A stretch of 37,845 nt of DNA from an uncultured Bacteroidia bacterium (lineage in GTDB: Bacteria; Bacteroidota; Bacteroidia; Bacteroidales; UBA932), in NCBI GenBank assembly GCA_902784785.1, contig CACZWF010000012.1, positions 1-37,845 of the forward strand, written 5' to 3'. The notes under the pieces were generated by a model that was not told where the DNA came from, made no database searches, and saw only the letters and a program-made list of their open reading frames with translations. Position 1 is the first letter of the stretch; each line of letters opens with the position of its first letter. Made by a program: the position numbers and the translations under genes. Positions 1-17,540 of the stretch are shown here, in pieces.

Positions 1-1169
1 GATTTGCCCTTGACGTTTTCTTCAGCCTTGGCCTCTATAGGAATGACTCGTTTTTCTGTCTGGACAGAGAAATCTATCTCGCACTCAGACTCATTGGACG
101 AATGGTAGAAGGTGGGGATCTGAATGCGTGCGAGCTGCTCGTTGACGTAGCACTCCGTGAAAGCACCTTTGAACTCCTTGAAGATGTTGTCGCCCACCAG
201 CATCTGGGAGGCCGGCACATCTGTCATCGCGCCCAGTAGACCCACATCCAGCGGGAAGATCTTGAACACATCGAAATCTTCGTAGAATTTGAGCGGGTAC
301 TCGATCTTGGAGACGCGGTGGATTTTGTAGATGAGACCGGCATCCTTGAGCCAGGTGATGGCCACTTCAAAGTCTTTGGCCCTGCCACCTTTTCGAACGG
401 CGCCGTAGATGAATTTCTTGTTTTCCTTGGCCAAATGCGATGGCAGGGAGTCCCAGACCATCTCGATGCGGGGAACCTCTTTCTTGGGTGCGTGTTTGGA
501 GAAGTCCTTGCGGTATCCAGCAAGGATATCTTTCTGGATCATGCGAACGGCATTGAGGCCTTTCCCTTCGATATAGCCGGCTACGGCCTCGGGCATGCCA
601 CCAACGTAGTAGTATTGGCGCAGGAGGTCAATATACTTCTGGCTAAGGGTGTTTACGGCGGGCCAGTCACAGCTGAGGAGGAGCTGCGTGAGTTTCTCAT
701 TTCCGGTGGCGTTCAGGAACTCGTGCAGGGACATCGGGAACATTCGGACCAGTTCCACCATGCCGACCGGGAAAGACTGGTCTTCGTGGATGGAGATACC
801 CAGCAGCGAACCGGCGACGGCGACGTCGTACTGCGGGAAGTCTTCCTTGAAGTATTTGAGACAGCCGAGGGCGGCGGCGCTTTCCTGAATTTCATCAATG
901 ATGATGAGGGTGTCCTTCGGCACAATGTCTACGCCGGTATGGGCGGATAGAGTGCGAAGAATGCGCGGTATGTCGTGGTCCGGCTCGAAGATGGACTTGG
1001 CCACGGCATCTTTGTCCAGGTTGACGTAGGAGAAGTTTTTGTACTCCTTGCTGCCAAACTCTTTGAGAATGTAGGTCTTGCCTACCTGACGGGCACCGTC
1101 AAGGACGAGGGGCTTATGGTCTCTACGAGACTTCCACTCAAGTAGTTTTTCGTATATTTCTCTCTTCAT
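1..1169 (-). CDS. AAA ATPase, AAA_14 + DUF4143 family (3' end outside window)
   Basis: Partial gene; 389 codons lie in the window and the frame stays open to position 1, so the C-terminus is missing. The start is ATG at 1167-1169. The protein has a Walker A (GARQVGKTY, about residues 25-33), a Walker B (LIIIDEIQE, about 85-93), the signature VELVRMFPMSLHEFL near 135-150, YYYVGGMPEAV near 187-197, and near the end PIEAKAEENVKGK, the PD-(D/E)xK-like core of DUF4143. By family knowledge these are cytoplasmic P-loop ATPases with a fused nuclease-like fold; no firm function is known. The start codon lies 9 bp from a 33-bp-period repeat array (1179-1289), which with a -7 box at 1232-1239 suggests autoregulation. 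Family assignment is firm; function is open. Confidence 0.9.
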   Translation of the reverse strand, partial: MKREIYEKLLEWKSRRDHKPLVLDGARQVGKTYILKEFGSKEYKNFSYVNLDKDAVAKSIFEPDHDIPRILRTLSAHTGVDIVPKDTLIIIDEIQESAAALGCLKYFKEDFPQYDVAVAGSLLGISIHEDQSFPVGMVELVRMFPMSLHEFLNATGNEKLTQLLLSCDWPAVNTLSQKYIDLLRQYYYVGGMPEAVAGYIEGKGLNAVRMIQKDILAGYRKDFSKHAPKKEVPRIEMVWDSLPSHLAKENKKFIYGAVRKGGRAKDFEVAITWLKDAGLIYKIHRVSKIEYPLKFYEDFDVFKIFPLDVGLLGAMTDVPASQMLVGDNIFKEFKGAFTECYVNEQLARIQIPTFYHSSNESECEIDFSVQTEKRVIPIEAKAEENVKGK

Positions 1170-1178
1170 ATTACAAAA

Positions 1179-1289
1179 ATTCTGACGAATATGAGATTGT
1201 TTTTAACATAAATTCGGACGAATTACGGAGGCAAATATACATTTATTCCGACGAATACGGAAATGTTTTCAACAATAATTCCGACTATT
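1179..1289. repeat. Four direct repeats at exact 33-bp period upstream of the DUF4143 ATPase
   Basis: Copies of ATTCNGACGAAT start at 1179, 1212, 1245 and 1278; the last is degenerate (ATTCCGACTATT) and lies over the 3' end of the integrase gene. The full 33-bp units at 1179 and 1245 match at about 25 of 33 positions, so the array looks like a decayed tandem repeat whose 12-bp core is conserved. The spacing equals about three helical turns. The array begins 9 bp from the ATPase start codon and covers its promoter, so it is a likely operator. Confidence 0.85.
1232..1239 (-). promoter_or_regulatory. -7 box (TATATTTG) of the first DUF4143 ATPase
   Basis: Exact match to the Bacteroidetes TAnnTTTG -7 element on the minus strand, lying between the second and third repeat units. 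A transcript start would fall near 1224, on the second unit. Confidence 0.6.
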
Positions 1290-14373: not shown

Positions 14374-15723
14374 TCACATATCCTCCATCGAGAGACAAGA
14401 AAGCACGATCTTGTTCTTTCTGGCCTGCTTCTCTTTGGAGGAGAAGAAAGCTGTTTTCTCTTCAAGAAGTTCCTTGTTGAATTTGTCCGGATTACGCTTT
14501 ACCTCTATCACATCGAGAACATTTTCCTTGAGGCGCAGGGCAACGATATCCAATTCGGCCTGCTGATGATGTCCCTCATTGTCTGTGTACCCTTTAGGGT
14601 CCCACCAACTTCCAACGTCGCGGTAATCCAGACTCTCTACCAACTTCAGCTTAAAGTATCGTTCAAGGACATCACCGGAATAGGTTTCATAATCCTCTTC
14701 CATAATTCTGCACAGGGCCGGGTACTGTCCGATTTCGATGAGTCGCTGGTTCTTTTCCACATAGCGGAACCAGAAACGAAGGAAAATATCGCTGATCTCG
14801 TACCTTACGGTCTGGGTCTTGGGCTTTGCCCAAATAGGTCGAACCTTTCGGATGAGATCGTATGTCTCTTCGAGATTCAGCAACTGTCCGCCCACACTCT
14901 TTCCACCCAGGTAGTCTTCAATCGAGGACTGGGTATTGTACCCCATCGATATGGCCTGAAGGATGGAAAAGTAGGTCGCATATTTCTTTCCGAACTCCTG
15001 GATGAGGAGTTTCCTGCCCTCTTCTATCAACGGAGAGTCCTCCTTGCAGATTTTGGTAATCATCTTCTTGCAGGTGGTCGCATTCACATCCATAAATAGT
15101 TCTACATATTTCGGAATGCCACCCGTGAAAGTATAAAGCGCGAGAAGGTCATCGTTGGAATAGCCCGGAGCGTTGTCCTTCATAATCTGTTTGAGGACAG
15201 AAGTGGGGAATGCCTGCAGCTTGATGGTCGAATCCTGCCTGCCGTAAAGGGGTTCTTTCCTGTTTTTGAAAAGCTTCTCCATCAAGGAATATACGGATCC
15301 GCTGACTACCATATTCACGTGGGTCTCTTTCTGAGACTTGTCCCACCAATTCTGTATATCGCTGTATATGGATGGATTAATATCAAGGAAATTCTGAAAC
15401 TCATCAAAGACCAGGGTGTATTTCCGACGCTTTCCCTCCTCCATCAGGAAACGGAACACATCCCGGAAAGCGCTCATCGAAGGGACGAATGAACCCATCT
15501 TCTCCTGATACTCCTCACAGAACTCCCGGCAAAGTACCGATTCACTCTTTTTACCCACAAACAGATACACATAAGGTTCGTCTTTGTAGGCTTCCTTGAT
15601 AAGGGTGGTCTTTCCGATACGTCTCCGTCCGGTAACAACCGTCATTCGGGAATAACCATCGTATGATAGTTCCCTCATTTCGCGCAACATCTTCAGTTGC
15701 TCTTCCCTGTCATAAAATTTCAT
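14374..15723 (-). CDS. AAA ATPase, ATPase_2 + DUF234 family
   Basis: 449 residues. Walker A VVTGRRRIGKTTLI (about 29-42) and Walker B LVFDEFQNF (about 104-112), with a VSGSVYSLMEKLF sensor block near 140-152. A winged-helix segment (about 240-290) leads to the DUF234 C-terminus, which ends in a PD-(D/E)xK-like element ELDIVALRLKE...DVIEVKRN near 390-412. The family resembles archaeal ATPases and has no settled role. The gene starts 9 bp from palindromic repeats at 15733-15759. It follows its own promoter (15762-15769) and is 150 bp upstream of the HD-GHKL gene on the same strand, so the two may share a role. Confidence 0.88.
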   Translation of the reverse strand: MKFYDREEQLKMLREMRELSYDGYSRMTVVTGRRRIGKTTLIKEAYKDEPYVYLFVGKKSESVLCREFCEEYQEKMGSFVPSMSAFRDVFRFLMEEGKRRKYTLVFDEFQNFLDINPSIYSDIQNWWDKSQKETHVNMVVSGSVYSLMEKLFKNRKEPLYGRQDSTIKLQAFPTSVLKQIMKDNAPGYSNDDLLALYTFTGGIPKYVELFMDVNATTCKKMITKICKEDSPLIEEGRKLLIQEFGKKYATYFSILQAISMGYNTQSSIEDYLGGKSVGGQLLNLEETYDLIRKVRPIWAKPKTQTVRYEISDIFLRFWFRYVEKNQRLIEIGQYPALCRIMEEDYETYSGDVLERYFKLKLVESLDYRDVGSWWDPKGYTDNEGHHQQAELDIVALRLKENVLDVIEVKRNPDKFNKELLEEKTAFFSSKEKQARKNKIVLSCLSMEDM

Positions 15724-15732
15724 ACGTCCAAA

Positions 15733-15759
15733 TTTTACGGCCGTAAAATTTACGGCCGT
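15733..15759. repeat. Palindromic TTTACGGCCGTAAA repeat upstream of DUF234 ATPase
   Basis: TTTTACGGCCGTAAAA (15733-15748) is a perfect 16-bp palindrome, followed directly by a second TTTACGGCCGT (15749-15759). It lies between the -7 box and the start codon, 9 bp from the ATG, covering the likely transcription start. A probable operator, unrelated in sequence to those of the two DUF4143 genes. Confidence 0.8.
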
Positions 15760-16109: not shown

Positions 16110-17456
16110 CTACTTCAGCCCATCCAATTCAATTTTGTAAGTCTGAACAGCCAATTTATCTTTCTCCAAAAACATAACCATATAAACCGGCACATAGGTT
16201 ATGCGGCCGCCGACGGTTAAGTTGTCGTTGTTCAGCACCAAAGCCTCAGAAAGATCGTACTCCTCACAATCCATAATGTTGGAGAGGGCACGATGGGATG
16301 TATAATCTTTTCCCGACTTGACCTCGATAGGGAGAACCGTTCCGTTTTGCTCAACGATAAAGTCCAACTCTCCTCGTTTCTTATTGTTGTAGTAGTAGGG
16401 CTCCAGACCATGCGCGACAAGTTCCTGGGCTATTGCATTCTCATAAATAGAGCCGAAATTAATGTCCTTATCACCCTTGATAATCCGCATCTGGATACCA
16501 TTGGCATATTGGGCGGCCAGCAAGCCGATATCGTTCAAGAAGAGTTTAAGAAGGTTGCGGGAGCGTGCCAGCAGAAGAGGGACCTTAGGCTCTTCCACAT
16601 TGTAAACGGGTATCGCGACGCCTGCATTCTTGAGCCAGAGGAAGCTATTCTCATAACGGTCGTACTTGGCATTTGCGTTGAGGCTTTTGAGAATGAAGCG
16701 CTTATTTTTAGCATTGAGTTCCGGCGGAATCAGGCTGAAAATTTCCTCTATGTACAACTTGTTGTCGGGGTCGTATTTAGCAATGTCTTTCTTATAAAGT
16801 TGAATAATCTCCTGCTGCACCGCCAGCACTTCCTGCAGGTTGTTGCTTTCAAGGTACTTGCTGACAGCCGCCGGCATACCTCCGACAATCAGGTAGAGCC
16901 GGAACAATTCTATCATCTTGTTATGAATGAACTCGTCAACAGGCCGCCTGTTCGTCCAAGCATCTTTCACCGAGGCTATCACATCCTCATTGATTCCAAC
17001 ACAGGTGATAAACTCTTCGAAGTCCATCGGGAACATTTGCTTTACGCCCATATACCCGACAGGGACCGAACGGATATCCTTCAATTCCACGCCGAGCAAG
17101 GAGCCGCTCAGGATATAACGGAATGAACCCTCATCGACAAGAAACTTGATTGCGGTGACAATATCCGGGCACTCCTGTACTTCATCAAAGAAAATCAAGG
17201 TTTCCCCCTTTATCAATGGAACATTCGCGATAGTGGATAAGCGCATCAATATATCGGCCGTTCCCCTTGCATCTTTGAACAAGCCAATGGCATCAGGATT
17301 CTCGATGAAGTTGATCTCGATAAAACTCTTGAAAGTCTTGCCAAACTCTCGAATTGAATAGGTCTTTCCTACCTGACGGGCACCTGTTATCAATAATGCA
17401 TTACCTGATTCTTGGTAATATTCTCGTAAGTAACTGTCTATCTTTCTTTTAATCAT
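16110..17456 (-). CDS. AAA ATPase, AAA_14 + DUF4143 family (second copy)
   Basis: 448 residues from ATG at 17454-17456. The open frame extends to 17531 but the extra 25 codons run through the repeat array, so I take the later start (MIKRKIDSYLREYYQE), which fits the family. Walker A ITGARQVGKTYS (about 23-34), Walker B LIFFDEVQE (about 86-94), SGSLLGVEL, MFPMDFEEFI, YLIVGGMPAAV, and in DUF4143 GELDFIVEQNG with PIEVKSGKDY, a PD-(D/E)xK-like core. Full length, unlike the first copy, which is cut by the window. The two proteins are clear relatives but diverged. Three repeats with 32-bp period stand before it. Confidence 0.9.
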   Translation of the reverse strand: MIKRKIDSYLREYYQESGNALLITGARQVGKTYSIREFGKTFKSFIEINFIENPDAIGLFKDARGTADILMRLSTIANVPLIKGETLIFFDEVQECPDIVTAIKFLVDEGSFRYILSGSLLGVELKDIRSVPVGYMGVKQMFPMDFEEFITCVGINEDVIASVKDAWTNRRPVDEFIHNKMIELFRLYLIVGGMPAAVSKYLESNNLQEVLAVQQEIIQLYKKDIAKYDPDNKLYIEEIFSLIPPELNAKNKRFILKSLNANAKYDRYENSFLWLKNAGVAIPVYNVEEPKVPLLLARSRNLLKLFLNDIGLLAAQYANGIQMRIIKGDKDINFGSIYENAIAQELVAHGLEPYYYNNKKRGELDFIVEQNGTVLPIEVKSGKDYTSHRALSNIMDCEEYDLSEALVLNNDNLTVGGRITYVPVYMVMFLEKDKLAVQTYKIELDGLK

Positions 17457-17461
17457 ATCTC

Positions 17462-17540
17462 TTCCATTTTTCCAACGCAATTTAGGGGAAAATTTCCACT
17501 TTTCCAACAGAAATTTGGCGATTTTTTCCACTTTTCCAAA
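17462..17540. repeat. Three direct repeats at exact 32-bp period upstream of second DUF4143 ATPase
   Basis: TTCCATTTTTCCAAC (17462), TTCCACTTTTCCAAC (17494) and TTCCACTTTTCCAAA (17526) start exactly 32 bp apart. The sequence between them is not conserved. The first unit ends 5 bp from the ATPase start codon. No exact TAnnTTTG box lies here; TAAATTGC on the minus strand near 17480-17487 is the best candidate, between units one and two. Confidence 0.85.

Follow-up and report, generated by a model that had tools for sequence, protein, structure and literature searches.

Private repeat arrays upstream of bacterial DUF4143 ATPase genes diverge in step with the adjoining protein and probably serve as its operators

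The question raised by this locus is why a gene for a DUF4143 ATPase should be preceded, almost up to its start codon, by a regular array of short repeats, and whether the motif of such an array belongs to the particular ATPase that it adjoins. In the window (the whole stretch of 37,845 nucleotides that was analyzed; Table 1), the three 15-bp cores that a sequence-only reading had placed at 17462, 17494, and 17526 are borne out. The core-to-core step is exactly 32 bp, Tandem Repeats Finder reports a period of 32 with a score of 98, and the proximal core lies 5 bp before the ATG (17456-17454), as had been stated. The repeat score of the array reached p = 0.005, the floor of the 200 dinucleotide shuffles. 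On the coding (minus) strand the cores conform to GTTGGAAAARTGGAA, with TTTGGAAAAGTGGAA as the third and distal copy; since the gene lies on that strand, the cores read toward the gene as GTTGGAAAAATGGAA, GTTGGAAAAGTGGAA, and TTTGGAAAAGTGGAA. The motif printed in the earlier reading is that of core 2 and is one base off from each of cores 1 and 3. A CRISPR array was ruled out: the cores are 15 bp, the spacers 17 bp, and there are three copies here and two to four copies in 105 arrays. Likewise, Cas families were absent among the ten window proteins scanned.

Table 1. Positions of the arrays, genes, and predicted elements in the window
Feature	Position	Strand	Basis
Second DUF4143 ATPase gene, 448 aa; AAA_14 19-149, DUF4143 222-382	16110..17456	(-)	Pfam
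Predicted helix-turn-helix, codons 248-278, last helix 265-278	16623..16715	(-)	Model and motif-change window scan
PD-(D/E)XK-like nuclease domain, codons 335-430	16167..16454	(-)	Conserved residues; fold matches weak
Repeat core 1 (proximal), GTTGGAAAAATGGAA	17462..17476	(-)	Sequence inspection and mismatch scan
Repeat core 2, GTTGGAAAAGTGGAA	17494..17508	(-)	Sequence inspection and mismatch scan
Repeat core 3 (distal), TTTGGAAAAGTGGAA	17526..17540	(-)	Sequence inspection and mismatch scan
TAAATTG, candidate -7 element between cores 1 and 2, 4/6 letters of consensus	17478..17484	(-)	
TTG inside core 2, candidate -33 element	within 17494..17508	(-)	Putative promoter role
Array of first DUF4143 ATPase, ATTCGTCNGAAT, four positions about 33 bp apart, distal one degenerate	1173..1289	(-)	
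First DUF4143 ATPase, cut by contig end; 30% identical to second	3..1169	(-)	
Repeats around ACGGCCGTAAA, before ATPase_2+DUF234 gene 14374-15723	15730..15759	(-)	

The likeness in layout to the first DUF4143 ATPase gene of the window is real, with ATTCGTCNGAAT present three times before that gene, together with a degenerate fourth copy at the distal end, in steps of about 33 bp. The claim that the motifs are unrelated holds for the two window ATPases, which are 30% identical, but not for a nearer paralogue in the same genome (C15, L003/L012; 59 to 60% identical), which has a closely related key, one copy being GTTGGAAAAAAGGAA. The related key of this paralogue suggests that keys drift gradually and that close paralogues could cross-talk. 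DUF4143 matches number eight in the genome: one lacks its N terminus at a contig end, and the other seven all have upstream repeats. Six of these seven upstream regions outscore every one of 40 single-base shuffles; the seventh (L012, with GTTGGAAAAA-type copies) is below that mark but, under its other handle L003, reaches p ≤ 0.05 against dinucleotide shuffles. The motifs include ATTCGTCNGAAT, TCGCGAAAAGGTGTATA, CGGCCAACTTCCCAAGTAAAAA, and one around CCGAA, with best periods of 32 to 34 or 22 to 23 bp. A broken homologue with a 110-aa frame (L016, G000:C1:25784-26050) still has TTGATTTCGTGTAGA-type repeats three times upstream. Private repeats, often inverted, also accompany the ATPase_2 genes of this genome (L251-L264); an ATPase_2+DUF234 gene sits between the two window DUF4143 ATPases. 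A significant direct or inverted repeat was found in 10 of 14 ATPase_2 genes as against 21 of 101 controls (Fisher, 0.0003), where 14 of 17 matches were tested and the start of L254 is poorly placed.

Many bacterial relatives of this ATPase carry an array of their own. A relative of the second ATPase gene is present at E ≤ 0.001 in 40 of the 61 genomes of the genus, and 42 of 48 genus homologues have significant direct repeats upstream, compared with 8 of 101 control promoters (Fisher, 2e-22); the 48 genes come from 77 match rows, the rest being fragments, cut starts, or not fetched. Among named homologues, the best 80 of at least 583 from one scan of public genomes, significant direct repeats were found before 70 of the 79 tested (Fisher, 4e-30, against the same 8 of 101), L177 being too short. 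L157, which has a miscalled start, is counted in the 79 and left out of later sets. The period was 31 to 35 bp, mostly 32 to 34 bp, in 40 of the 42 genus arrays and in 67 of the 70 named arrays from these best 80 of at least 583. A significant direct repeat was missing before 6 of the 48 genus homologues and 9 of the 79 named ones, the latter again from the best 80 of at least 583. The 101 controls derive from 20 stretches of the window's genus only, none from other phyla, and 8 of them, or 10 with new shuffles, fell at p ≤ 0.05, 1 of the 10 at a lag of 31 to 35. The named loci (the best 80 of at least 583) span Bacteroidota, Bacillota, Actinomycetota, Spirochaetota, Verrucomicrobiota, and others, though many are from metagenome assemblies, so that single phylum labels may be wrong. 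Isolates among the significant named loci include Bifidobacterium callitrichos, Collinsella, Oscillibacter, and Bacteroides.

Matches to the family also occur in 61 plasmid records and 11 unannotated faecal phage records. Thirteen such records were fetched, 11 with a parsable gene, and 8 of these 11, including Acinetobacter, Vibrio, and Glaesserella loci, have significant direct repeats. In the plasmid homologues of Acinetobacter and Vibrio (L240, L241) the repeats are three units of 32 bp, and each unit is an approximate palindrome about ATGCGCAT or a similar sequence. DUF4143 genes of about 370 to 420 aa from other genera of the phylum (L083-L111) mainly show inverted repeats just upstream of the start. 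At p ≤ 0.05, 22 of the 27 loci parsed from this set had inverted and 10 had direct repeats, with inverted repeats in 13 of 101 controls; the 27 are part of the 29 new DUF4143 loci taken from a larger number of matches, L105 and L106 being unparsed.

The two window motifs are private to their genes. In the own assembly (2.39 Mb in 164 contigs, about 91% complete), TTGGAAAANTGGAA has three matches, 3 of 3 in this array, and the reversed control has one. The 15-bp core was not found at zero or one mismatch in 200 kb of other own-genome DNA, and its nearest match in the rest of the window is one at two mismatches. Across the 61 genus genomes, the two-copy pattern TTGGAAAANNGG-N16..21-TTGGAAAANNGG gave 12 matches in 6 genomes, and all 12 stand before a homologue: 11 precede the closest homologues in five genomes, and the twelfth precedes a homologue cut by a contig end (G052:C37). 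The pattern was found nowhere else in these genomes, and the reversed control gave none. Likewise, the array pattern of the first ATPase has its own promoter as its only match in the 61 genomes; its G037 orthologue (97% identical over the compared part) has the same motif, one copy being one base off the strict pattern. Occurrence across the genome without linkage to ATPase genes was thus looked for in the own assembly and the 61 genomes and was found for neither window motif.

The sequence-only reading had proposed that specificity coevolves with each ATPase, and the comparison of motif divergence with ATPase divergence supports this at the level of co-divergence. Over 104 genes, motif similarity tracked protein identity with a Mantel r (Spearman) of 0.485 (permutation p, 0.0005), the largest r in 2,000 permutations being 0.188, whereas the spacer between the last two copies gave 0.054 (p, 0.055). 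The set started from 107 significant genes at a lag of 31 to 35, reduced to 105 without identical proteins and to 104 without the cut protein L190; the genus and named sets overlap by two loci (L036/L132 and L038/L160). In the 29 protein pairs that are 80 to 100% identical, the median similarity was 15.8 bits for the motif and 0.6 for the spacer. The relation was also found between phyla, with 0.44 for the motif and 0.01 for the spacer over 2,931 pairs (p, 0.001, labels permuted within phyla); here, two genes with no phylum name were omitted, and genus loci were assigned to Bacteroidota by hand. Shared descent alone would keep spacers as well as cores, and the cores therefore appear to be under selection, for which a tie to the protein is the simplest reading. 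In the larger class of cores, one half (GGAAAA) changes little, and the other is variable (TGGAA, CGGAC, CGGCA, GTTAC, GGGGC, and others).

The second ATPase, which we take to be of the type labeled COG1373 (AAA_14 plus DUF4143), scores 91.6 bits for AAA_14 (cutoff, 27) and 102.5 bits for DUF4143 (cutoff, 28.1). Among 47 sequences, the Walker A/B residues are kept (G25, R27, G30, K31, and E92 invariant; D91 at ≥90%), as are nuclease-like residues (E339 and K380 invariant; E378 at ≥90%), with D365 at ≥90% in a 24-sequence alignment only. An AlphaFold model (pLDDT, 87; pTM, 0.88) predicts an AAA+ domain, a helical region, a winged-helix-like region at about residues 236 to 290, and a nuclease-like C-terminal part, names that we assigned from helix and strand order and from fold matches. 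The top PDB fold matches are PABY2304 (2qen) and SSO1545 (2fna), both archaeal AAA+ ATPases; DNA-bound Orc1 comes next, and Orc1/Cdc6 on origin DNA ranks twelfth. Residues 229 to 448 alone give weak fold matches, all with E above 0.001, FokI first, and further McrC, DdmD, and some winged-helix proteins. No sequence match to the second ATPase was found in the PDB.

Which part of the protein best predicts motif change depends on the pairs considered. We computed the partial correlation of 21-residue windows with motif similarity, given the rest of the protein. In the 874 pairs of at least 50% identity, the peak lies at residues 248 to 268, in the predicted helix-turn-helix, with 0.419 (window mean, 0.061; standard deviation, 0.117), a value above the at most 0.369 reached by 1,000 random column sets. 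For these pairs, the top window fell inside the helix-turn-helix region in 165 of 200 gene bootstraps, and residues 248 to 268 also ranked first when the GGAC class was removed (0.405) and when just the genome_contigs loci were used (0.484). At 40% identity or more, this helix-turn-helix window was not first in any set (ranks 69, 75, 122, and 91 of 428); in the full set, where it ranked 69, residues 170 to 190 were best, and rank 91 is that of the genus loci alone. In the genus loci alone it was not first at 50% either (rank 81 of 428, 96 pairs). Whole-region correlations put the winged helix slightly ahead (0.470), followed by the nuclease (0.456), lid (0.449), and AAA (0.435) regions. Mutual information, computed column by column for protein and motif, proved noisy and was left out of account. 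Ser266, at the start of the last helix-turn-helix helix, is present in 11 of 12 proteins with a CGGAC or CGGAT motif (the other has Thr) and in 6 of 62 in other classes. This pairing with GGAC was picked by eye after looking at the data; in a tree from which the winged-helix columns had been omitted, four supported pairs were independent of one another, and these went the same way in 3.8 cases on average and the opposite way in none, too few for significance. A pairing of N266 with GTTAC failed, as of four pairs, on average, 1.7 went the same way, 0.5 went the opposite way, and 1.9 did not differ.

The arrays overlap promoter-like elements. The -7 promoter consensus is TAnnTTTG, and TAAATTGCG at the candidate -7 position of the window array is kept in the orthologues L034, L035, and L036, whose other spacer letters differ. 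Of the 64 Bacteroidota-type genes in which a -7-like element (5/6 letters) was found, 60 have it within the span of the array, with 74% predicted by uniform placement. A TTGNAA -35 candidate falls inside a copy in 12 of 39 other loci, an uncontrolled count made by eye. L049 and L066 are themselves two similar copies in one genome, with 92.9% DNA identity, and L066 is without one 34-bp repeat unit, which includes the -7-like TATATTTG. Action of the repeats at the RNA level was set aside, since transcription probably starts downstream of the distal copies.

Taken together, we consider it likely that the array is a private operator of the adjoining gene, bound by that gene's own ATPase and controlling, probably repressing, its own promoter. 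Each core would be recognized by the winged helix of the ATPase whose gene follows the array directly, and, with copies about three helical turns apart, several ATPase molecules may line up next to one another. Bound in this way they would cover the gene's promoter, most likely holding expression low; we infer repression from the expectation that occupied copies would block RNA polymerase. Release might follow when the ATPase changes, be it in nucleotide state or by loss to another substrate. The variable half-site and the helix-turn-helix would change together, each lineage thereby keeping its own lock and key, with separate control of paralogues in one genome.

Other readings have to be weighed against this operator. 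The Orc/Cdc6-like fold of the model, the nuclease-like C-terminal part with its conserved residues (fold matches weak), and the even spacing of the direct repeats would also suit a recognition site for DNA transactions of an Orc-like ATPase-nuclease (origin-like, iteron-like, or self-marking), at which promoter overlap is secondary; haloarchaeal Orc/Cdc6 genes, according to the accessible part of one source, lie beside their own ORB repeats with linkage-specificity (PMC3528665). However, eight DUF4143 matches in one genome, seven with upstream repeats, are hard to square with origins, and the -7-like elements that lie in the array in 60 of the 64 Bacteroidota-type genes with such an element likewise count against it, so that we regard this reading as unlikely. 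We think it highly improbable that an unlinked global regulator binds the repeats or that they are low-complexity promoter sequence that arose by chance. The cores are A-rich and the GGAAAA half is widely shared, which speaks for these readings, but the motif varies between paralogues in one genome, tracks the protein across phyla, and forms an array pattern found nowhere else in 61 genomes, and 8 of 101 control promoters reach p ≤ 0.05.

Conceivably, array and gene could form a one-gene mobile or selfish unit of which the array is the left end. In most listed homologue pairs, DNA similarity sets in at the array and is lost close to the stop codon; relatives occur in many phyla, in the 61 plasmid records, and in the 11 faecal phage records, and COG1373 is listed, in the available part of the source, among genes common to different genera (PMC10782964). 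Selection on promoter and open reading frame alone would yield the same boundaries, however, and the close pair L044/L065 (94.8%), with different upstream DNA, shares DNA again about 120 to 180 bp downstream. Furthermore, the joined flanks of L035 had no match across the junction in 250 genomes, and a protein scan of viral_contigs, in which 10 stretches matched a pattern, gave no relative. A precise mobile cassette is not supported, given this downstream resumption and the lack of a joined-flank match, and we hold the mobile unit to be very unlikely. In two other pairs of homologues in different places, L003/L038 and L049/L066, DNA similarity extends further downstream.

A private operator leaves the role of the ATPase itself to be considered. 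Positions 1 to 20790 of the window form an island with an integrase, Fic, AbiEii, ORF6N, HD-CE, NUDIX, and three AAA-type ATPases, and the same island contains a C5-methylase adjoining a MutH-type gene. Of nine annotated plasmid relatives, five have DUF262, type III restriction, AbiE, HipA, or Fic genes nearby and four do not, in an uncontrolled count. In Thermus thermophilus, as given in the accessible portion of the source, RNA of a DUF4143 gene was 6.6-fold higher with a plasmid in the presence of Argonaute, and the genes raised alongside had no clear common function (PMC4406477). A role around foreign DNA would fit these neighbors in the window and on plasmids, the COG1373 list, and the Thermus RNA. 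Possibly, though this is rather doubtful, these ATPases constitute a large Orc-like ATPase-nuclease family across phyla with an evolving protein-DNA code, formed by the helix-turn-helix and the variable half-site, in which each gene has its own keyed array that marks "self" and lets many such genes share a genome without mutual interference, whether they act in conflicts with foreign DNA or are selfish units.

The DUF4143/COG1373 family is hardly treated in the literature searched, where the COG1373 mentions looked into are in passing, yet a relative is present in 40 of 61 genus genomes and the window genome alone has eight DUF4143 matches. No report of these arrays was found in that literature, most subscription papers lying outside its scope. 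A recognizable private array would hand each gene its likely DNA target without experiment. The arrays supply a natural set of proteins paired with their likely sites, from which a winged-helix recognition code might be read, and they make autoregulation and orthogonality directly testable.

In comparison with known systems, the arrangement recalls the autorepressed controllers of toxin-antitoxin and restriction-modification systems, in which a DNA-binding module occupies repeats in its own promoter. Here, in contrast, ATPase, DNA-binding, and nuclease-like parts are predicted in one protein, with no evident partner gene. PABY2304 (2qen) and SSO1545 (2fna) are archaeal AAA+ ATPases that are alike by fold only. 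A DUF1703-type AAA+ ATPase likewise joins an AAA+ module to a C-terminal PD-(D/E)XK (restriction-endonuclease-like) domain, but it belongs to a different family, and the available part of its description mentions no operator array (PMC1913061). The closest precedent, as far as the accessible parts of the sources go, is archaeal Orc1/Cdc6 with its ORB repeats. In haloarchaea, members of one Orc/Cdc6 family have similar repeats next to their genes, and these repeats differ from one family to the next (PMC3528665); individual origins require the cdc6 gene that belongs to them (PMC3936714). Both cases combine an AAA+ ATPase that has a winged helix, here a predicted one, with repeats beside its own gene, and in both the sites differ between paralogues in step with the protein. 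The Orc1/Cdc6 arrays, however, are replication origins, whereas the present arrays overlap promoter-like elements, in bacteria, and the present ATPase has an extra nuclease-like domain. Only AAA_14, DUF4143, and AAA_16 were reported by Pfam at E ≤ 0.01, and because no Orc/Cdc6 match was among them, we do not file these ATPases as Orc/Cdc6; the likeness is one of anatomy, in that the arrays appear to work like the Orc/Cdc6-ORB pairing, and not of membership. With that qualification, a pattern known from archaeal Orc/Cdc6 would extend to bacterial proteins of related fold.
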